Below, one piece after another: positions 85 through 7,639 of a stretch of 44,107 nt of DNA. The notes under the pieces are model-generated. The model saw nothing but the letters and a program-made list of their open reading frames with translations, was not told the origin of the DNA and ran no database searches. How positions within the stretch are numbered: the stretch's first letter is position 1; each line of letters starts with the position of its first letter. Source of the DNA: an uncultured Halieaceae bacterium (GTDB lineage Bacteria; Pseudomonadota; Gammaproteobacteria; Pseudomonadales; Halieaceae). The translations under genes and the position numbers were made by a program. Location of the stretch: positions 1 to 44,107 of the forward strand of contig CAJXNM010000024.1 in NCBI GenBank assembly GCA_913057135.1, in the 5' to 3' direction.

Positions 85-160
85 GCGGGAATAGCTCAGT
101 TGGTAGAGCGCAACCTTGCCAAGGTTGAGGTCGCGAGTTCAAGCCTCGTTTCCCGCTCCA
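85..160 (+). tRNA. tRNA-Gly (anticodon GCC), integration target
   Basis: The 76-nt cloverleaf has acceptor GCGGGAA, anticodon stem CAACC/GGTTG around TTGCCAA (anticodon GCC), T arm GCGAG-TTCAAGC-CTCGT and an encoded CCA. Its 3' half (116-160) recurs at 7595-7639 with two differences in the T loop, so this gene is the attachment site of the adjacent element. The 3' half inside the intact gene is next to the element and is therefore probably element-derived. The displaced copy at 7595 carries TTCGAAC and is probably the original host sequence. Both T-loop versions fit the tRNA consensus. Confidence 0.97.
116..160 (+). repeat. attL: 45-bp direct repeat (3' half of tRNA-Gly)
   Basis: This copy matches 7595-7639 at 43 of 45 positions, with mismatches at 141 and 143. 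The first 25 bases (116-140), which cover the anticodon loop and the 5' side of the T stem, are identical to 7595-7619, so strand exchange probably took place there. Confidence 0.93.
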
Positions 161-258
161 AATTTTCCTTTATAAATCAGCGTCTTACCAGATTTTCTGG
201 TCTGCCAGCCGACGGGCCATCATTTTCTATACCCAGCCCGTACCCAACGAGCAGGTAC

Positions 259-293
259 AAAAAAGCCCGGCTTGTGATCCACAGGTGCCGGGC
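259..293 (-). terminator. Intrinsic terminator after the capsid gene
   Basis: Read on the minus strand, a perfect 7-bp stem GCCCGGC/GCCGGGC (287-293 with 265-271) closes a 15-nt loop and is followed by six T (259-264). It lies about 85 bases past the capsid stop and would end the leftward transcript before the tRNA genes. The rest of 161-376 shows no gene that I can support. Confidence 0.85.
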
Positions 294-376
294 AAACCTG
301 CCGTCTCCACCAGCACTTACCGCACCATCGGCCAGGAGGAAGCCCTAAACGGTAAGCGCTGGGTCGGATCAATACG

Positions 377-2092
377 TTAAGCCGTCGTAACGTCCTTGAT
401 TGCAGCAAATGACTCCACGTTGCGAACCGCCACATCCAAATCTGACAACCCGCGAATCCTAATAATGTTCTGATCCATCTTGGTGAAGTTATCCACCAAG
501 AATTCGCCAGAGCTCCAGAAGCCCACAACAACATCACTCCAATTACCAAACGTAACCGCGCTGCACACGCTCGAGCTCGTGCCCTTGGTTAAATCGCTGG
601 GGCTGTTGGTGGTCGATAAGACGCTGTGACCGAGCACGCTGTTATCCCCATTCAAAATGAAGTTTGCCTCTACACCGCCACTCTGGCGCGGAGTCTGTCG
701 CATAGCTGCCACGACCTGGGGGTTGGTCACGAACGCGAGTGATCCCGTCAAAGCGTTCTGCTGTTCAACTTCAGAAACTAGATCGACAAGCGCCGCATAG
801 GTGATAGGGCCGCCATTAGTGCCAAGCGCGACCGAACCAATGCCATTCGTTTGCAACACGCCCGTCGGCTGATTAGCGCCACCGCCTTCCAGGATTACCG
901 CGTCAATGCTGCTTGCGATTTGGCGAGCCATATCCGCTCTTAAGAGCGCCTCTATATCGGGGCTGGACTGTTGGATGGTGCGTCTAGATATTTCCAAAAA
1001 CGACGCCACTGTCTTGGGTGATAGCGTGACCTGAGTAAACGACGGGGTGCTTTCGCTCAGTTGCCCGGTCTCCGTATACCAATTCGCGCTCGTGCCGGTG
1101 GAGGCTTTGGGCAGCGCCACGTCGCCCTCGAGGCCCGAGAGGGTGGTACAGCGCTCCAATACGACGCTCGAGGCCACCAATGCGTCGATAAAGCTGCCAC
1201 CGAGAACCGTAGTCTCCACCAAGTTAGCGCCATTGCTGGGGCTACCAAGCGTAATGTCGCGCTTGCTGTAATTGTTTAAAACCTCACCCGGCAGCACGAT
1301 GCTATCGGGGTGGCGAGCTCGCTTGCGAGTCGTTTCTAGCACCTCTTTTTCGAGCCCAGCCCGACGCCAGTCACCACTGCATTTCGCCTCAATGGCGCGT
1401 GCAAGACTAAAGTCTCGCGTCTCGCGCTTGCTCAAGCCGATGTCCTCGACATCGAGAAGATTTAGCGGTTTGTCCTCCAGTTGATCGAGAATAAACTCGC
1501 GGAACTGGGCGAGGCTCATGCCTCTCGATATAGCGTGCTCGGCCAGGTCCATTCGATTGTGACGCTTTGCGATCCCTACAATCTCAGTGGCTTCGCGCTG
1601 ATAGTTTTGTACGGTTTCCATGTTTGAATCCTTGTGACTTCGAATTTGTGTGATGCGGGCGCTCTGGTCAGCCGGCACCGATACCAGCGACACCTCTAGC
1701 AGGGTCCAGCTGGTAGCAATCGTGTGGCCGTATTTCTCTTGCGTCTCGTCGATGCGGTAACCGATCGAAACCGAGCGCAGAATTCGCGCCCTGGCGTCTC
1801 TCAGCGCCTCTTGCGCCCTTTCGCTTTCTCCAAAGCGCAATGTGCCGATGAGCTCGCCGTCTTGAATGCGAACGTCATCAACCACGCCAATAGGCGACTC
1901 GTCGGCCTTGTGAGCCAACAGCAGGGGAAAGGGGGAACGGGATAGGTCGATTGACTCTCGGTCGATCTGTAACACTTCCATGATGCCGTAGCGTGCTACC
2001 GGCGCGCTTGTGGCAAGTACAGCGGTTGCTGTATCACCATCGGCGCGAACCGATATTGGGCATTCAATGGAACGGTATTTGGTTTGGGCCAT
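377..2092 (-). CDS. Prohead protease-HK97 major capsid fusion protein
   Basis: This 571-aa protein joins two phage head proteins. Residues about 1-155 look like a U35/S78 prohead protease: the histidine in LLLAHKADE (H61), the serine in RSVSIGYR (S109), and the conserved LLEVSLVSVPAD. From about 158 a scaffold-like delta domain leads to an HK97-fold capsid, with RDITLGSPSNGANLV near the expected processing point and a region rich in NQPTGVL, FVTNP and GDNSVLG type motifs. The start at 2092 is chosen because GGAGGT lies six bases upstream; the frame is open further upstream to 2215. A second start at 1621 with AAGGA seven bases upstream could give a separate 414-aa capsid. It is the last gene before attL. 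The fold assignments come from motif recognition, so the catalytic residues are inferred. Confidence 0.9.
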   Translation of the reverse strand: MAQTKYRSIECPISVRADGDTATAVLATSAPVARYGIMEVLQIDRESIDLSRSPFPLLLAHKADESPIGVVDDVRIQDGELIGTLRFGESERAQEALRDARARILRSVSIGYRIDETQEKYGHTIATSWTLLEVSLVSVPADQSARITQIRSHKDSNMETVQNYQREATEIVGIAKRHNRMDLAEHAISRGMSLAQFREFILDQLEDKPLNLLDVEDIGLSKRETRDFSLARAIEAKCSGDWRRAGLEKEVLETTRKRARHPDSIVLPGEVLNNYSKRDITLGSPSNGANLVETTVLGGSFIDALVASSVVLERCTTLSGLEGDVALPKASTGTSANWYTETGQLSESTPSFTQVTLSPKTVASFLEISRRTIQQSSPDIEALLRADMARQIASSIDAVILEGGGANQPTGVLQTNGIGSVALGTNGGPITYAALVDLVSEVEQQNALTGSLAFVTNPQVVAAMRQTPRQSGGVEANFILNGDNSVLGHSVLSTTNSPSDLTKGTSSSVCSAVTFGNWSDVVVGFWSSGEFLVDNFTKMDQNIIRIRGLSDLDVAVRNVESFAAIKDVTTA

Positions 2093-2219
2093 GTATTCAC
2101 CTCCGGTAACTGCGCCCATACGAAAACAGCCTGCATAGCAGGTTGCGGTTTTTTGGGTTGCAGCTCCGCAGGTGACAGCCTGGGGGGCGATCGCCGGGTG
2201 ACGCCCGGCCAGCACAGTA

Positions 2220-2228
2220 AGTATAGCA
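2220..2228 (-). promoter_or_regulatory. Possible extended -10 promoter for the capsid gene
   Basis: Read on the minus strand, TGCTATACT is an extended -10 element (TGN plus TATACT), with no good -35. Transcription would begin near 2213, giving a leader of about 120 nt. That leader starts with a GCCGGG-CGTCA-CCCGGC hairpin (about 2192-2209) that could act as an operator or stabilise the RNA. Confidence 0.4.
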
Positions 2229-2272
2229 ATTTTGCCTACGCCTTTGATAGTAAAACCGGCAAAAATCGAGCA

Positions 2273-2300
2273 TTTACGCGGGTTTTAGGGCACATATAAT
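2273..2300 (+). promoter_or_regulatory. Possible rightward promoter in the satellite
   Basis: TTTACG (2273-2278), a 16-base spacer and a perfect TATAAT (2295-2300) form a plausible sigma-70 promoter. It faces right, against every gene of the element and towards the iteron array. No plus-strand gene follows. It could make an antisense or origin-activating RNA, or be chance in an AT-rich stretch. Confidence 0.3.
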
Positions 2301-2418
2301 ACGAACCGAAACCAGAGCGCCAAGCAGAAATATTACGCCGTGCTCGCGAAGCACCGGCCGCGGAATCCGCCCGGAAGGACCCATTGCACCCCCCCTGCCA
2401 GGGCCACCACAGCGCCCG

Positions 2419-2490
2419 GTGAACGCGTCCAGTCGCCGGTGAACGCGTCCAGAGACGCTGTGAACGCGTCCAGTCGCCGGTGAACGCGTG
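2419..2490. repeat. Four-copy iteron array, GGTGAACGCGTCC-type
   Basis: GTGAACGCGT begins at 2419, 2439, 2460 and 2480, so the period is 20-21 bp, about two helical turns. The first three copies continue CCAG, and copies 1, 2 and 4 are preceded by CG or CCG, so the full unit is about 20 bp. The GGTGAAC core resembles, as I recall them, the type I iterons bound by the P4 alpha primase-helicase. The array fills the gap just past the stop of the 129-aa gene. A replication or packaging site is inferred, not shown. Confidence 0.75.
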
Positions 2491-2493
2491 CGC

Positions 2494-2883
2494 TCAAGCC
2501 TCTGCATCAACCACCAGCGCATCAGCCGCCTCGATGATTACGTCAGAAAAAATGCCCCAGCCGCGGCCATGCCCAGCAAGGGCCGGCGATAGCTCATCCA
2601 CCGGTGGCAATAAGAACTGACCCAGCTGGGCCCTGGGCACGCCACTGATTTTTCGCCAGCGACTGCCGGGTACCCATAGAAAAAAATCTTTTTGCTTGTT
2701 GCCGACGTACACCCAGGCTGCGAAAACTTCCAAAGTGAGCGGCGAGACTTCGACGATCATACTCTGCCGAAAAAGCGCTTCGCGCTCGTCGGTATCACGC
2801 CATTCCGCCGGAATATGACAGGCGTCCTTAAAGCATCGCGCCACGTTGGTTGATCGCTTGTTGTAGCTATATCGCTTTGCCAT
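2494..2883 (-). CDS. Hypothetical satellite protein, 129 aa
   Basis: I do not recognise this protein. It begins with a basic segment (MAKRYSYNKRST), has a short hydrophobic middle (VFAAWVYVG), then aromatic and proline-rich stretches (FFLWVPG, FLLPPVDEL) and an acidic, alanine-rich tail. No signal peptide, transmembrane helix or zinc motif is visible. GGAG lies about six bases before the ATG. It stands between the ori-like region and the iteron array, upstream of the capsid gene, so a role in replication control, head assembly or redirection of helper packaging is possible, but this rests on position only. Confidence 0.7.
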   Translation of the reverse strand: MAKRYSYNKRSTNVARCFKDACHIPAEWRDTDEREALFRQSMIVEVSPLTLEVFAAWVYVGNKQKDFFLWVPGSRWRKISGVPRAQLGQFLLPPVDELSPALAGHGRGWGIFSDVIIEAADALVVDAEA

Positions 2884-2901
2884 TTTCTGCTCCGTTTTGA
2901 C

Positions 2902-3161
2902 TTACAACCTCAATGAGGTTGCAACAGGTTGTAATCGCCCTGAAACCCGCATAAACACTGGGTTTTTGGCCAACATTGCAACCTACCCCCGGTTTTCAAA
3001 CTATTTTTCGATAGCAACGCATATACCCCTTTAACTGCCTCTATCTATTTTTAGTTTGAATATTGGAATTAGGTTGTATGTTGTAGTAAATCGGCCTGAA
3101 AGCCGCATAAACACTAGGTTTTTGCCTACCTGCAACCTCATTACAACCTCAGTGAGGTTGC
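2902..3161. repeat. Symmetric palindrome/iteron region, candidate replication origin
   Basis: Two 17-bp palindromes, CAACCTCAATGAGGTTG (2905-2921) and CAACCTCAGTGAGGTTG (3144-3160), mark the ends, each preceded by TTA and followed by C. Inside are two direct repeats (about 2927-2985 and 3079-3139) sharing the core GCATAAACACT and flanked by GGTTGT and GCAACCT. At the centre, TTCAAACTA (2995-3003) and TAGTTTGAA (3052-3060) form an inverted repeat around an AT-rich stretch. At least eight GGTTG/CAACC units occur. Repeats arranged about an AT-rich core beside primase and helicase genes suggest an origin. The right palindrome overlaps the vapE stop region. It could instead be an operator region for the genes to its left. 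Confidence 0.7.
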
Positions 3162-4430
3162 GGAAGGATTCCTCATCGGCGGCATCCCGTAGCGACGGCC
3201 CTTGCCTTTCTCGATGCCTAGATTTTTCAACTGCTTGCCGAGCTCGGTAGGGCCAGACCGATTGGTGTTGGGCCAGCCAATTTCCTCGAGAATCTCAGTA
3301 CTGGTCTGCCAATCCGCACGCCCCGTGGCGTCAAAGTCGTAAACGTCCAGCAAGCGCTCGCGCATCGGTTGATCTTCGAACCCGTACACCACTTTGGCGT
3401 GCATGGCCTCTTCACCTGGCGTCAGCCACCACTGATCGCCGCCGGTGTACATTGCCCAGGCCTCGGCCCAGATCGCCTCTGCAAGCCCCTGAGGCCACTC
3501 AAATCGCCTAGTGACCGTCACAGGCCAGAACCGCCGGTTGCCGGTGTCATCGACGAGAAATTTCGGCTGATTCACCGTAGCGGCGAACACGGTACTGCGC
3601 GCCGACCGGGTAGCCTCATACGCGTAGGGTTTGCGTATCTCGTCGCACTGGTCAGTCAGAAAGGCCTTCATAGCCGCTATGTCGGACTTCTTAAATGTCG
3701 AATCGAGCTCGCCCAGCTCAATCAACCAATTTGAAGTCGCCGCGATCTTTGAGTCTTTGTTGCTAGGGTCGAGCGTACGCCCGAACGAACCATACTCGCG
3801 GATCGGCTCGGGTATTAGGTGATACAGCAGCGACGTTTTCGCAATGCCCTGCGCGCCGACAAGAGTTAACACGTACCCATACTCAGGTCGCGCACCGGAG
3901 ACCGCATGCTCGCAAAAATCGGTTGCCGCGCATGCTTGTATTAGCCATCGGTTAAGGGCCACACGCGCCCACTCTGGCGGCTCTAGGCCGGCCCCCTCAA
4001 TTAGCTGCCCGATTGGATCGGACACCCCCCCGGCGGGTAAATTTTTAATGTAGTCGAGCGGTGGATTTGACAGAGACAAGCGCGCCAGGGGGGCAAGAAA
4101 CCGACTGACCGCCACCGCCGGCAGTCCATGCCTCGCCGCCTCTGACTCGAGCAGCGCACGCACCATGTCGTAGTCGTTTTCATCATGGCCGACAGATCGC
4201 ACGTTGATTGCACGCAGACGCTTGTGGTGAACGTCCCAACAGACACTAATGCCGCAGCTGCTCAACAGCGCCGCGACATTTTCGGCAGTCGCCAACACGC
4301 GCACCTCGCCATTTTTCAGTAGCTTAACGTCGGGAAAATCGACCTCATCGAGCGCCGGCCCGCGCAGGCTGCTCAGTGTGAGTGGTTTAGTTTCAACAGG
4401 CTCCACTGCGCGCCCTGGTAGTTTATCCAT
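3141..4430 (-). CDS. VapE/VirE-type P-loop ATPase (satellite replication helicase)
   Basis: This 429-aa protein matches the virulence-associated E family, superfamily 3-like ATPases common in satellites and islands, where they are thought to unwind the element's origin. Walker A is GAQGIAKTS (192-200), the acidic Walker B is in WLIELGEL (235-242), and a GNRRFWPV motif (about 297-304) supplies candidate arginine fingers. The C-terminal 80 residues may form a winged-helix DNA-binding domain. The start overlaps the end of the primase gene by 8 bases, with GAGG seven bases upstream, so the two are translationally coupled and probably work as primase plus helicase. Confidence 0.88.
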   Translation of the reverse strand: MDKLPGRAVEPVETKPLTLSSLRGPALDEVDFPDVKLLKNGEVRVLATAENVAALLSSCGISVCWDVHHKRLRAINVRSVGHDENDYDMVRALLESEAARHGLPAVAVSRFLAPLARLSLSNPPLDYIKNLPAGGVSDPIGQLIEGAGLEPPEWARVALNRWLIQACAATDFCEHAVSGARPEYGYVLTLVGAQGIAKTSLLYHLIPEPIREYGSFGRTLDPSNKDSKIAATSNWLIELGELDSTFKKSDIAAMKAFLTDQCDEIRKPYAYEATRSARSTVFAATVNQPKFLVDDTGNRRFWPVTVTRRFEWPQGLAEAIWAEAWAMYTGGDQWWLTPGEEAMHAKVVYGFEDQPMRERLLDVYDFDATGRADWQTSTEILEEIGWPNTNRSGPTELGKQLKNLGIEKGKGRRYGMPPMRNPSATSLRL

Positions 4431-5232
4431 CGCGCAGCCTCACATAGTCGTTGTAATCGTTGTCGCCGGGTGCGCGATCTAGGCCGCTAAAATCGGGCAC
4501 ACGCCAGTCAAGGCCCGTTGCTTTTGCGGCCTTATGCCCGGCGTCGTCATCGTCAGCCATCACCCGTACAGGTCGCCTAGGGAATGCACGTACTGCCCAT
4601 TTGGCGACGTTGCCCAGCTGCCCGGCGCTGAATGCGACCACTACAGTGTCGCCGGTGTCTTCGTGCAGCGACGCGCCGGTGGCGAATCCCTCAACGATCC
4701 AAACCGAATCGCCGCCGGCAAAAGTAAAATTGACGCCAGCCTGGGGAGCGCCGGGCAAAAAGCCCTTCGTGCCGTCTTCGCCGATGAATTGCAGCGTGGT
4801 CAGCTGCCCTCGCCGGTAAGAGGGAACCACAAGCAAATTCCCGCGCCCCCTGACATTCCCTGGCGCATGCTCAAACTCAGTGCCCACGACGCCAATGCCG
4901 TGTGGCTTGATCCGCTTGCGTACCAGGTAGGGGTGATTAGGCTGTGCTGCTGTAGTTAAGCCCCATAGCTCAACCGCTCGAGCGTTAGGCGTCGGCATTT
5001 CGGCCACAACTTCAGCCCGGCGCGGCAGCAACGGTCGCTCTTGCTCGAGGCCCACAGCCTGCGCCAGGTCTTTGAAGTCGCACCCGTTGCGGCAGTGCAG
5101 CAGAATTTGGCTGTGGCCTTGCTTGATATGGAATCGGTCGGTTCCGCCACATAAAAGACACGCCCCCTCGTACTGTGTGCCATTGCGCCTGAGCCCCAAT
5201 CGTTGGGCTGTTTCAGTGATATTGGTAAGCAT
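4423..5232 (-). CDS. Zinc-finger/TOPRIM primase of the satellite
   Basis: This 269-aa protein has an N-terminal zinc-ribbon with C25, C28, C47 and C51 (CLLCGG and LLHCRNGC), as in DNA primases. A TOPRIM-like domain follows, with the glutamate in VWIVEGFATG (E181) and the acidic cluster in VMADDDDAG (227-230). It should make RNA primers at the element's origin. The start at 5232 has AGGTGA about eight bases upstream and puts the zinc finger close to the N-terminus. The frame stays open further upstream to 5412, but that part lies over alpA and looks non-coding. Confidence 0.88.
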   Translation of the reverse strand: MLTNITETAQRLGLRRNGTQYEGACLLCGGTDRFHIKQGHSQILLHCRNGCDFKDLAQAVGLEQERPLLPRRAEVVAEMPTPNARAVELWGLTTAAQPNHPYLVRKRIKPHGIGVVGTEFEHAPGNVRGRGNLLVVPSYRRGQLTTLQFIGEDGTKGFLPGAPQAGVNFTFAGGDSVWIVEGFATGASLHEDTGDTVVVAFSAGQLGNVAKWAVRAFPRRPVRVMADDDDAGHKAAKATGLDWRVPDFSGLDRAPGDNDYNDYVRLRDG

Positions 5233-5279
5233 CGTATAATTCACCTGCTGTCGGTCTTGGTCGGTCGATGGTTGCGTCG

Positions 5280-5315
5280 ATGCCGGTTGGGTAGTCCCCT
5301 GCCGGCATTTTTTTT
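5280..5315 (+). terminator. Rightward intrinsic terminator, antisense to the satellite genes
   Basis: ATGCCGG (5280-5286) pairs with CCGGCAT (5302-5308). The loop contains a further GGG/CCC inner stem, and eight T (5308-5315) follow on the plus strand. On the minus strand the hairpin is not followed by T, so it can only stop rightward transcription. It sits between primase and alpA, where no plus-strand gene exists. It would keep antisense RNA out of alpA and the integrase operon. Confidence 0.75.
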
Positions 5316-5320
5316 GCGCG

Positions 5321-5572
5321 CTAGGCCACCTGTGTCTGTGCTGTGCAATGCTGCTCACGGCATTGGGCAAGCCATCGATCGAGCTCTGCGCGCTCGTAAA
5401 ACACGCGGGCATTGCGTGATGCTTGCTTGTGGTAGGCCGGGGCTTGAACGCCGGCTAAAAGCCCATCGACGCGAGCGCGCCGCAGTGTGTATTGGCTATA
5501 GCCGAGATAGCGCGCCGCCTCGGCGGTATTTAACCGAGACGCAGCAGGGGATTCGTTGGTGTGGTCTTGCAT
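5321..5572 (-). CDS. AlpA/MerR-like helix-turn-helix regulator or excisionase
   Basis: This 83-aa protein has a winged helix-turn-helix of the AlpA/excisionase type at residues about 13-70 (LNTAEAARYLGYSQYTLRRARVD, then a wing with NARVFYERAELDRWLA). In satellites AlpA proteins activate excision and replication or act as directionality factors. GGAGGC lies five bases before the ATG, and a promoter plus an inverted repeat sit just upstream. It stands before the primase-helicase pair, consistent with a master switch. Confidence 0.85.
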   Translation of the reverse strand: MQDHTNESPAASRLNTAEAARYLGYSQYTLRRARVDGLLAGVQAPAYHKQASRNARVFYERAELDRWLAQCREQHCTAQTQVA

Positions 5573-5581
5573 GACAAGCCT

Positions 5582-5634
5582 CCATCGGTTTGTGTATCGA
5601 TGGGGCTAATAGTGGGGAATCGTTTGGGTCTAAA
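5582..5634 (-). promoter_or_regulatory. alpA promoter with inverted repeat
   Basis: On the minus strand, TTTAGA (5629-5634), a 17-base spacer and TATTAG (5606-5611) form a sigma-70-like promoter. Just downstream, CCATCG (5582-5587) and CGATGG (5598-5603) form an inverted repeat covering the start of the transcript. This could be an operator for a helper-phage or AlpA regulator, or a hairpin near the ribosome site. Confidence 0.5.
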
Positions 5635-5639
5635 TTTAC

Positions 5640-6113
5640 TTAGTTTTTCTTGTTTTTCTGAGTAAATCGATCAATGAACCATCGGTTTGCTTTGAAGTAT
5701 TTTGAGTGAGCATTGGCGACCGTTGAAAGCTGGACGTTGTGCTTCTGAGCCACTCGCCGTTTTACTTCATCCCTAGTCAGCCGGCGGTGTTTCTTTCTGT
5801 CATTGCACTTTATCGCCCGCTCATAGGCAAGGGCAAGCTGTATTTCCTTTTCACTCTGTACTTTGATCTCTTTGCCGTCTCGCACAACGGAGGCCTTGAT
5901 CTTTCGACCGCGTAGCAGCTCTGCTACGGCAAGCATGAATTCATCGTTTGGAAAGTCGCGCTCGAGTATGTCAGCAGCGGTGGCCTGTTGCTGCTCTTTG
6001 CTCATCTGCCGAATAGAATGTAGCTCGCCAAACCGCCGTAGCCGCGCTCTCAGGCCGTCGAGGCCTGACTTGAAAGAGGCCTCAATTTCCTCTTTTGTTA
6101 AATCGTCATCCAT
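5640..6113 (-). CDS. Hypothetical satellite protein, 157 aa, basic
   Basis: I do not recognise this protein. It is charged and helical: an acidic N-terminus (MDDDLTKEEIEASF), a central helical region, and a lysine/arginine-rich C-terminal part (KCNDRKKHRRLTRDEVKRR) followed by a segment that could be a helix-turn-helix (VAQKHNVQLSTVANAHSKYF). A DNA-binding role is likely. The start at 6113 is preferred, with GAGGGG about ten bases upstream; an in-frame ATG at 6134 overlaps the integrase stop. Either way it directly follows the integrase and is likely co-transcribed with it. Confidence 0.75.
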   Translation of the reverse strand: MDDDLTKEEIEASFKSGLDGLRARLRRFGELHSIRQMSKEQQQATAADILERDFPNDEFMLAVAELLRGRKIKASVVRDGKEIKVQSEKEIQLALAYERAIKCNDRKKHRRLTRDEVKRRVAQKHNVQLSTVANAHSKYFKANRWFIDRFTQKNKKN

Positions 6114-6126
6114 TGCCACAGCCCCT

Positions 6127-7401
6127 CTAGTCATCCAACACGGCCACCGCCGCCGAATAGTGCTCCGGCGCCAGGTGAGCGTAGCGCTCAGTCAATTTAA
6201 TATCTGAATGACCAAGCAACCCCTTTACCGTATAAATGTTCACGCCGCGCATCACTAGTGTCGACGCGTAGTGGTGCCGTAGGTCATGGAAACGGAAATT
6301 GTCGATCTTCGCCGCCTTGAGCACCGCGCCCCAAGACCTGCGGACATTGTCCAATTGACCGCCAGTGACAGGGCTCTTAAATACGAGGCCTTCGCGCTCG
6401 CCGGTCTGATTAGCCCACTGTGTTAGTGCATCGACCGCCTTTGCGGGTAAGGGCACATGACGCGTGCTTTTGCTCTTGGCTTTCTCGCCGATAACAGTCA
6501 CGCGCTTGGCTTGCAGATCGAGCTCCGACCACTCGAGACTCAGCGCCTCGCCTCGGCGCAAACCACTGTACATGCACAGCAGCACAATGGGCGTTAAGTG
6601 ATCGCCAAAGCCACCGGCAGGTATGGCCGGAAAAAGCTCGTAACCGCGCTCAGAGCGCCATTGGTTAGCGCTGTCGCGCTCTGCTATCAGCCTATCGTCT
6701 CGCTCGCGTAGGGCCGCCAGTAGGCGCTTTTCCTCGCTCTCGCTAAGGTAGCGTGTCTTTGGGTTTTTATCGCCTTTAATTTGCGCTAGTCCAGCGATTG
6801 GGTTGCTGTTCAGCATGCGCTTTTTCACCGCGACATTGAGCAGTGCTTTTAAAAGGCCCACGTCACGGTTGATTGTCGACGGCTTAATGCCGGCCTGGGC
6901 ACGCCTGCCACGCCAGTCTGTAACATATGACTCGGTTATTTCGGATAGGTCGAGATCAAGGGCACAGCGCCACTTGGCGCGTATATCTTGCACGATGGCT
7001 TTCCTGCTCTTGGTGTCTCTGTCTTGCAGGTATTTCTCGTAGTGTTGGTCGATGAATGCGCGCAGCGTCGAGGCCTTCTGCTTTTCGGCATCGGCGATTG
7101 ATTCTCGCTTGGCTAAATTCAGATCAAGCCCGGCAGCGACCTCGCCGGCCTTCTGCTTGGCGATCTTGCGCGCCTGGGCGAGCGCCAGTCGGTTGGCTCT
7201 GCCAATGGTGTAGGTTTTGTCCTTGTGATCTACCGGCGATCGATAGCGCAGGTCATAGGACACCGTACCCGTTGCAGACACTCGCACGATGAAACCCGTC
7301 TGCTCAGAGTCGTAAATCTTGTAAATCTTGCCGGTTGGCTTCAGTGACGCCACAAGCGTCTGAGTAATCCGCGTGCGTGTTTTGCTTTCTTTGGCAGCCA
7401 T
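6127..7401 (-). CDS. Tyrosine-recombinase integrase
   Basis: This 424-aa protein catalyses integration into tRNA-Gly. It has a DUF4102-type N-terminal arm-binding domain (about 10-95), a helical core-binding domain (about 110-200) and a catalytic domain with R282 (SGLRRGE), a lysine in the IGEKAKS strand, H372 and R375 (FHDLRHHYAS), H398 (LLGHSD) and nucleophile Y407 (ERYAHL). All catalytic residues are present, so it should be active. It is adjacent to the right att copy, distal to the intact tRNA. A TATATT box lies about 30 bases upstream, in the AT-rich att region. Confidence 0.97.
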   Translation of the reverse strand: MAAKESKTRTRITQTLVASLKPTGKIYKIYDSEQTGFIVRVSATGTVSYDLRYRSPVDHKDKTYTIGRANRLALAQARKIAKQKAGEVAAGLDLNLAKRESIADAEKQKASTLRAFIDQHYEKYLQDRDTKSRKAIVQDIRAKWRCALDLDLSEITESYVTDWRGRRAQAGIKPSTINRDVGLLKALLNVAVKKRMLNSNPIAGLAQIKGDKNPKTRYLSESEEKRLLAALRERDDRLIAERDSANQWRSERGYELFPAIPAGGFGDHLTPIVLLCMYSGLRRGEALSLEWSELDLQAKRVTVIGEKAKSKSTRHVPLPAKAVDALTQWANQTGEREGLVFKSPVTGGQLDNVRRSWGAVLKAAKIDNFRFHDLRHHYASTLVMRGVNIYTVKGLLGHSDIKLTERYAHLAPEHYSAAVAVLDD

Positions 7402-7464
7402 GCTGGTGTCTCCGCTTCACTGTGTACCCAAAATATACCCAGTAAAATGCAAACACAACAGCAA

Positions 7465-7529
7465 ATTGGCAAACGAAATTACATTAGAAAAAAGCGGACA
7501 ATTGGCAAAAAATGCCGTAATTACAGTAA
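7465..7529. repeat. Arm-type repeats beside attR
   Basis: ATTGGCAAA occurs at 7465-7473 and again at 7501-7509, 36 bp apart. Each is followed by AATTACA(T/G)TA (7477-7486 and 7519-7528). The TTGGCAA core is the reverse complement of TTGCCAA, the tRNA anticodon loop found in both att copies. Integrase or excisionase binding is inferred. The stretch 7402-7594 holds no gene and is AT-rich, as expected for an att arm region. Confidence 0.5.
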
Positions 7530-7594
7530 TTTAGCTAAATATCAGGGGGAATATGCGTGTGGTAATGGTGGGGCGTGTTTATAGTGGCATACAA

Positions 7595-7639
7595 TTGCCA
7601 AGGTTGAGGTCGCGAGTTCGAACCTCGTTTCCCGCTCCA
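7595..7639 (+). repeat. attR: displaced tRNA-Gly 3' half
   Basis: This is the 45-bp partner of 116-160, ending in CCA. It lacks the acceptor 5' strand, D arm and 5' anticodon stem, so it is not a tRNA gene. It carries the T loop TTCGAAC and is probably the original chromosomal 3' end pushed away by integration. Confidence 0.93.

Follow-up and report, generated by a model that had tools for sequence, protein, structure and literature searches.

Among described phage satellites with a capsid protein of their own, the Staphylococcus aureus pathogenicity island (SaPI) SaPIbov5 encodes Ccm, a protein that fills the pentamers of a T=4 shell shared with the helper capsid protein, the portal being present in part of the particles (PMC8569155). 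Ccm is reported to be unable to substitute for the helper capsid protein (PMC5052747, PMC8569155), its shorter delta domain has been proposed to favor small capsids (PMC5052747), and SaPIs are described as using their own small terminase (TerS) to redirect the large terminase (TerL) of the helper (PMC6092414). Here we describe a 7.5-kb element at positions 116-7639 of a 44,107-nucleotide stretch of DNA (the window) from an uncultured Halieaceae bacterium (GenBank assembly GCA_913057135.1, contig CAJXNM010000024.1, positions 1 to 44,107 of the forward strand). Its only recognized morphogenesis gene encodes a prohead protease fused to a major capsid protein. We consider it probable that this is an integrative satellite resembling the phage-inducible chromosomal islands (PICIs), and that its self-maturing capsid protein would build or remodel a small shell on the portal of a helper phage, which would also provide the connectors, large terminase and tail.

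Like SaPIbov5 and other cos-type SaPIs, which are integrative and combine a lone HK97-fold capsid homologue with the portal, terminase and tail of a helper (PMC5052747, PMC8569155), the window element has a lone capsid homologue with no portal or large terminase found. A further likeness is that Ccm was modeled with an N-terminal segment shorter than the one in the helper capsid protein (PMC5052747, PMC8569155). The cited passages, however, identify no protease in SaPIbov5, its host belongs to a different phylum, and Ccm is compared here by description only. PISP, a Vibrio TG93 satellite-plasmid, encodes a capsid protein, a head maturation protease, a small terminase and a MerR-like regulator, and neither a portal nor a large terminase is named in the cited passages (PMC13230959). 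It is nevertheless a plasmid in which no integrase was detected, its capsid belongs to PF03864 and related elements are reported there only in Vibrio (PMC13230959), whereas the window element has a PF05065 capsid and is chromosomal with an att pair. The Gram-negative PICIs EcCICFT073 and PmCI172 have an integrase, an AlpA/MerR-type regulator, a primase/replication module with the origin on its 3' side and a reported capsid-protein homologue (PMC6092414), and the window element shares with this group an integrase with its att pair, a regulator of this type and a primase/replication module; in contrast, the cited passages name no protease-capsid fusion, and EcCICFT073 is packaged in full-sized capsids (PMC6092414). 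Capsid-forming PICIs (cf-PICIs) resemble the window element in having their own capsid and head protease, but theirs are described together with a portal, connectors, both terminase subunits and HNH (PMC10690885), which were not found here. Finally, the PICMI elements are likewise small and integrated in marine gammaproteobacteria, but they are reported typically to have no capsid remodeling genes and to lie next to fis (PMC10803314), unlike the window element with its capsid gene and its site at tRNA-Gly.

In view of Ccm, the capsid homologues of PmCI172 and EcCICFT073, and PISP (PMC5052747, PMC8569155, PMC6092414, PMC13230959), an earlier note on this DNA drew too sharp a contrast when it set the element apart in principle from classic PICIs. 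On the proposed reading, the element would widen the range of satellite cargo, standing between satellites that remodel a borrowed capsid and those that bring a whole head. A literature search of titles and abstracts found no description of protease-capsid-only satellites in Halieaceae. Capsid-assembly genes are said to be mentioned for some marine satellites in the 2022 VEIME paper by Eppley, and overlap with the elements described here is possible.

A capsid gene without recognized portal or terminase genes

The earlier note had listed two att copies, an integrase, AlpA, a primase, a VapE-like helicase, two proteins of unknown function and a protease-capsid fusion on one strand, and all of these were confirmed by Pfam and PHROG searches and by the direct repeat (Table 1). 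The seven genes run on the minus strand in the order integrase, 164-residue protein, AlpA-like regulator, primase, helicase, 129-residue protein and fusion. Judged by its genes and boundaries, the element is integrated, as indicated by the integrase and att pair, and has its own regulator and replication module. The fusion joins a Peptidase_S78 domain to a Phage_capsid domain (PF05065, E 1e-37; phrog_617, E 2e-102; the searches took 377-2095, one codon beyond the ATG at 2092). No window gene matched a terminase or portal family in Pfam or PHROG, bearing out the description of a capsid-bearing satellite that lacks both. Across the whole genome, four families were searched: PF04860 and PF05136 (portal) and PF03354 (TerL_ATPase) gave no matches, and GpA_ATPase PF05876 gave a single 61-residue match, below the cut-off and containing an internal stop, among open reading frames (ORFs) that by eye resemble cytochrome oxidase genes.

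We classified 209 loci with this capsid type using our own TerL and portal profiles, two types of each; the loci are mostly on viral contigs, come from pattern scans yielding at most 80 loci each and include many near copies. A portal lies within 9 kb at 152 of these loci, and two have TerL without a portal match. No portal, TerL or integrase was matched at 39 loci with less than 2.5 kb of upstream DNA, nor on seven viral contigs with more than 2.5 kb (L051, L147, L148, L206, L212, L239 and L240), on which the capsid gene is surrounded by long, mostly unnamed ORFs; these seven are not counted as satellites. An integrase was matched, and no portal or TerL, in nine rows; these are eight distinct elements, L161 being a repeat of L034. 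The 56 ORFs taken from these eight elements (five from the window) matched 18 Pfam families, none of them TerL, portal or connector, and none of the three appears among the PHROG matches listed (25 of 34 families).

Relatives with the same layout

The window's own genome contains a further two capsid genes of this type, along with a partial match of 37 residues. The C10 element (L005:4972-12724) encodes a capsid 94% identical to that of the window element (C24), an integrase and a relative of the 129-residue protein, its genes being otherwise different. It is flanked by 24-nt repeats 7.7 kb apart, and this att pair is less certain because the repeats agree at 20/24 positions and no tRNA gene was found alongside. 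The C30 element (L006:8743-17599), with a capsid 39% identical to C24, is bounded by exact 51-nt repeats at tRNA-Ala, 8.8 kb apart. Both occupy other sites and have different replication genes than the window element. The presence of three capsid-only elements in a single marine genome of 2.9 Mb would be a sign of satellite pressure in Halieaceae of which we found no report, perhaps from helpers that are not prophages.

The other five elements, of which L034, L036, L037 and L038 are in other genomes of the family, lie at tRNA-Cys (L037, exact 45-nt repeats 8.8 kb apart), tRNA-Ala (L038, 62-nt repeats, 95% alike, 9.9 kb apart), tRNA-Gln in Microvirga antarctica (L163, 86-nt repeats, 98% alike, 10.8 kb apart; capsid best matching phrog_4523), tRNA-Ser (L034, no second att found) and, in L036, beside one end that is tRNA-like by eye, with the other end off the contig. 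Att pairs were thus found in six of the eight elements, one of the pairs being weak. A profile built from the seven capsids of the family gave full-length matches only at those seven places, in five of 140 genomes of the family, and at E 1e-10 six other family genomes had partial or weaker matches. The earlier note had raised the case that all relatives carry terminase and portal genes; among the 12 of 140 family genomes with a capsid match, we viewed the surroundings in eight (the other four have weak partial matches), and five of these hold the seven capsid-only elements. Of the remaining genomes, G086 has its capsid gene on a 4.2-kb contig. In two more, G127 (L039) and G115 (L040), an integrase, an HK97-type TerL, a distant capsid and a small portal lie within ~10 kb, and by gene content these would be capsid-forming satellites or small prophages of another type.

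At the level of the order, the capsid profile finds matches in nine of 390 genomes at E 1e-40; two of these already count among the carriers, and the loci in the other seven all have a portal. The spread outside the family is poorly sampled, because a first scan of genome contigs gave nothing and a second gave four loci. Capsid relatives also occur in 183 phage records, all less than 60% identical, and in 18 plasmid records, three of which were opened; DNA close to the element itself was found in none of the phage records. On a 3.9-kb contig of a gammaproteobacterial metagenome-assembled genome (J047, L162:2205-3941), a capsid of the second group described below follows what by eye is the end of a helicase-like ORF, with no portal between, and this is probably a further capsid-only element. 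On the 12.5-kb Planctomyces plasmid pPL62-4 (L252, NZ_CP011277.1), which encodes a P4-type primase and a sigma-like protein, the capsid gene is the only structural gene annotated, and Pfam gave no portal or terminase in the seven of its 17 listed proteins that were scanned. On a Sphingomonas paeninsulae plasmid (L253:6827-8917), a gene annotated as a fusion of prohead protease and major capsid lies close to an AlpA gene and is followed by a gene for a cement-like protein; the annotation shows neither portal nor terminase for ~7 kb to either side of the fusion.

Selection on the capsid gene and the capsid tree

Purifying selection on the capsid gene is strong. The C24 and C10 copies show a synonymous divergence (dS) of 0.77 and a nonsynonymous divergence (dN) of 0.053, giving a dN/dS of 0.069, far from the value near 1 that the earlier note had associated with relaxed selection, and the ratio is similar in the protease (0.074), middle (0.071) and capsid (0.064) parts. 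In a tree of 42 capsid rows out of 195, for which non-satellite rows were thinned at 70% identity and short or weak matches and L161 were left out, seven satellite capsids stand among 32 phage and three unclassified rows; L163 was dropped because only part of it aligned. The satellite capsids fall into two groups, C24/C10/C30/L034 (support 100/100) and L036/L037/L038 with the unclassified contig L162 (support 100/98). Phage capsids lie between the two groups, at least two label changes are required by the starred branches, and the nearest non-satellite capsids found are less than 50% identical. The position of the two groups among phage rows implies that the capsid-only state is old, and it would have arisen either twice or once with a reversal.

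These results bear on the idea that the element is the remnant of a prophage or of a cf-PICI that has lost its packaging genes. In favor of it, this capsid family mostly occurs together with TerL and portal. Against it, the capsid-only state is common to eight elements, which represent two separate capsid groups and, in addition, Microvirga; att pairs and replication genes have been kept, and the dN/dS is low, so that we regard a remnant as very improbable. A recent deletion does not fit, because two more capsid-only elements are present in the same genome and five elsewhere, and the suggestion in the earlier note of a reduced cf-PICI is unlikely because the layout occurs in two separate capsid groups.

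A complete or a shared shell: two possible forms

The satellite reading takes two forms, which differ in what the capsid protein would build. The alignment columns of predicted His62, Ser110 and Glu134, which we take to be the catalytic residues of the protease, are invariant in every row long enough to include them (40 of 42), which would be expected if the protein can mature a shell itself. Between protease and capsid core lies a scaffold-like segment of 158, 158, 156 and 143 residues in the four clade-1 satellites (the first group above), compared with 170-192 residues in 10 of the 11 other clade-1 rows (10 phage, one unclassified) and 137 in the remaining one. This shortening suggests a smaller shell in the clade-1 satellites. 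A predicted structure of the capsid protein was of low confidence (mean pLDDT 56) and was not used.

In the first form, the satellite protein would act as Ccm does, replacing part of the helper shell, for example its pentamers, and forcing a small capsid for which the helper capsid protein remains essential. That mechanism has been demonstrated for Ccm, an HK97-fold protein with a delta domain modeled as 44 residues shorter (PMC5052747, PMC8569155), and the shorter scaffold-like segment of the clade-1 satellites is in keeping with it. On the other hand, SaPIbov5 is described without an identified protease (PMC8569155), whereas the protease here is fused to the capsid and its predicted catalytic residues are invariant, and the low identity to the nearest non-satellite capsids may limit co-assembly. 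We regard a shared shell of this kind as a real possibility, if somewhat short of an even chance. In the second form, the shell on the helper portal would consist of the satellite protein alone. A single gene under selection contains the protease, scaffold-like segment and capsid in full, as it does in phages with this fusion, and the satellite capsids form groups of their own in the tree; a complete shell would, however, require a capsid interface that fits a foreign portal. Because of the fused protease we rate full replacement equal to the shared shell. If the shell proves complete, the satellites would offer a natural test of capsid/portal interchange between tailed phages and of how shell size is set.

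The predicted helper phage and the proposed course of packaging

Three of the relatives encode a Nu1-like small terminase of phrog_57 (L036, E 8e-6; L037, E 3e-25; L038, E 9e-12), and L041 has a phrog_57 TerS as well, next to GpA terminase and lambda-family portal genes; no TerS was found in the window element, C10, C30 or L034. By analogy with the SaPIs, the TerS genes of L036-L038 suggest the type of helper. The probable helper would be a tailed phage whose terminase is of the GpA type and whose portal is of the lambda family, proposed because that module usually accompanies this capsid type in phages. Upon infection by such a helper, the element would excise and replicate, and the capsid gene may be switched on late, gated by the structured leader described below. 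The satellite capsid protein would then assemble on the helper portal, either forming all of the shell or sharing it with helper capsid protein, as in the case of SaPIbov5 Ccm; its own protease domain would mature the shell, the helper large terminase would fill it and the helper tail would deliver it.

The capsid might alternatively serve as a weapon that poisons helper assembly without packaging the element, or might form a portal-less compartment resembling an encapsulin. Ccm alone is reported to block its helper (PMC5052747), and no portal gene is present in the element. Retention of the prohead protease and the TerS genes of three relatives nevertheless point to DNA packaging, and we think such a role improbable.

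Several results weigh against the satellite reading proposed here. Our own profiles must miss some portals, because the seven non-satellite viral contigs show no portal match, and the uniformity of the eight elements is partly a matter of choice, as they were picked for having neither portal nor TerL. Two family genomes, G115 and G127, encode more distant capsids (25-26% identical) that are accompanied by TerL and portal. The window element has no recognized TerS or packaging site. The one clade-1 row with a scaffold-like segment of 137 residues has no protease part, the clade-2 satellites have segments of 185-196 residues, inside the range of all phage rows (137-236), and the short segment counts as a single event because it is confined to one clade. 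A search for the empty att site through the flanking peptidase gene (E 1e-60) found that gene in one of 51 genomes of the genus, the window's own, and hence no empty site could be demonstrated. PF05136 portals occur in two of the 140 family genomes (G050 and G115), neither of them among the five carriers. The predicted helper is therefore not resident, given that the four families stay under the cut-off in the window's genome and PF05136 is in no carrier. Helpers may be virulent, rarely resident or of another portal type.

Structured leaders of the capsid genes

The 80 nt preceding the capsid start are identical between C24 and C10, which is weaker evidence than it appears because the capsid gene itself holds one 71-nt identical run and recombination may explain part of the identity. 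The predicted fold has a long outer stem over the ribosome-binding site and an inner hairpin followed by a U-rich stretch, and the RNA of 2094-2200 folds with a z-score of -3.06. Under one rule for all genes (150 nt, the last of them being base 10 of the gene), the mean z is -2.96 for the eight satellite capsid leaders, compared with -0.60 for 35 other gene starts of these elements (Mann-Whitney p 2.8e-4) and -0.82 for the capsid starts of 32 phage loci (p 1.3e-3), the pattern having been spotted after the fact in C24 and C10, which are close kin, and the phage starts being approximate. Leaders are unusually stable in the window, L005, L006, L036, L037 and L038, and unremarkable in L034 (z -1.3) and L163 (z -0.3); three of the 32 phage leaders have z of -2.9 or lower. 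Rfam searches, permissive for the window and at gathering score for seven loci, found tRNAs only. No common sequence motif emerged from a poor alignment of four leaders, and an 11-mer shared by the C24, C10 and L162 leaders also occurs in L045 and may be chance.

The structured leader may gate expression of the capsid gene, and an alternative is that it is a packaging site in the DNA. A more ambitious version of the satellite reading, which we consider doubtful, is that these elements form a shell-swapping family in which one protease, scaffold and capsid gene yields a complete, self-maturing small shell that docks onto a foreign portal. On this version the state would have evolved at least twice, with three such elements in one genome, and the leader, terminator-like or ribosome-hiding, would couple expression to the helper.

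Gene map and further observations

Table 1. Features of the integrated element in the window.
Feature	Position	Strand	Basis or remark
tRNA-Gly(gcc), integration target	85-160	+	ARAGORN; Rfam tRNA, 69.5 bits; 3' part is the left att copy
att copy within tRNA-Gly	116-160	+	direct repeat, 43/45 bases identical to 7595-7639
Prohead protease (S78)-major capsid (HK97 type) fusion, sole recognized morphogenesis gene	377-2092	-	
Structured leader directly before the capsid start	2097-2176	-	
Unknown 129-aa protein preceding the capsid gene	2494-2883	-	
Candidate replication origin	2902-3161	.	direct repeats and AT-rich stretch; putative, from position and layout
VapE-type (D5-like) replication helicase	3141-4430	-	PF05272, E 1e-41
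Toprim primase	4423-~5232	-	PF13362, E 2e-10; start codon picked by reading the sequence
AlpA/excisionase-like helix-turn-helix regulator	5321-5572	-	PF12728 (HTH_17), phrog_66
Unknown 164-aa protein, overlapping the end of the integrase gene	5640-6134	-	
Tyrosine integrase	6127-7401	-	PF00589, E 7e-28
Second att copy (tRNA-Gly 3' end)	7595-7639	+	direct repeat with 116-160

Immediately 3' of the VapE gene, two pairs of direct repeats surround an AT-rich stretch (2969-3088, 37% GC), and by position and layout this is a possible replication origin. Neither the 164-residue nor the 129-residue protein had a Pfam match at E 0.01 or a PHROG match at E 0.001, the former showing a weak similarity to phrog_5366 (E 0.008), and the integrase-adjacent proteins gave no convincing alignment. 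Relatives of the 129-residue protein were found in C10 (53% identical) and, weakly, in L034 (21%; phmmer E 1e-4), with none in the pattern scan of viral contigs and no phage record matched at E 0.01. A two-row profile of this protein matched only the window's genome among the 140 and missed the weak relative in L034, and its AlphaFold model (mean pLDDT 70) gave no fold match at E 0.001.

Several of the relatives contain further genes. Small sigma-70 region 4 proteins are encoded right after the capsid gene in C30 (L006:9602-9826) and in L034 (10226-10411). A bSEFIR protein at L038:11106-11876 (PADLOC, E 4e-76) and a weakly TIR-effector-like protein at L163:15717-16730 (E 8e-9) are probable anti-phage cargo. 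A second integrase-like gene and a helicase-like gene lie across tRNA-Ser from the L034 element (L034:283-3498), perhaps as part of a neighboring island, and two ORFs inside the L038 satellite (6186-7381) resemble by eye an IS3-type transposase pair. In the window element itself, two 30-nt direct repeats, in which four copies of GTGAACGCGT were seen by eye, lie at 2419-2489, between the gene for the 129-residue protein and the capsid leader.

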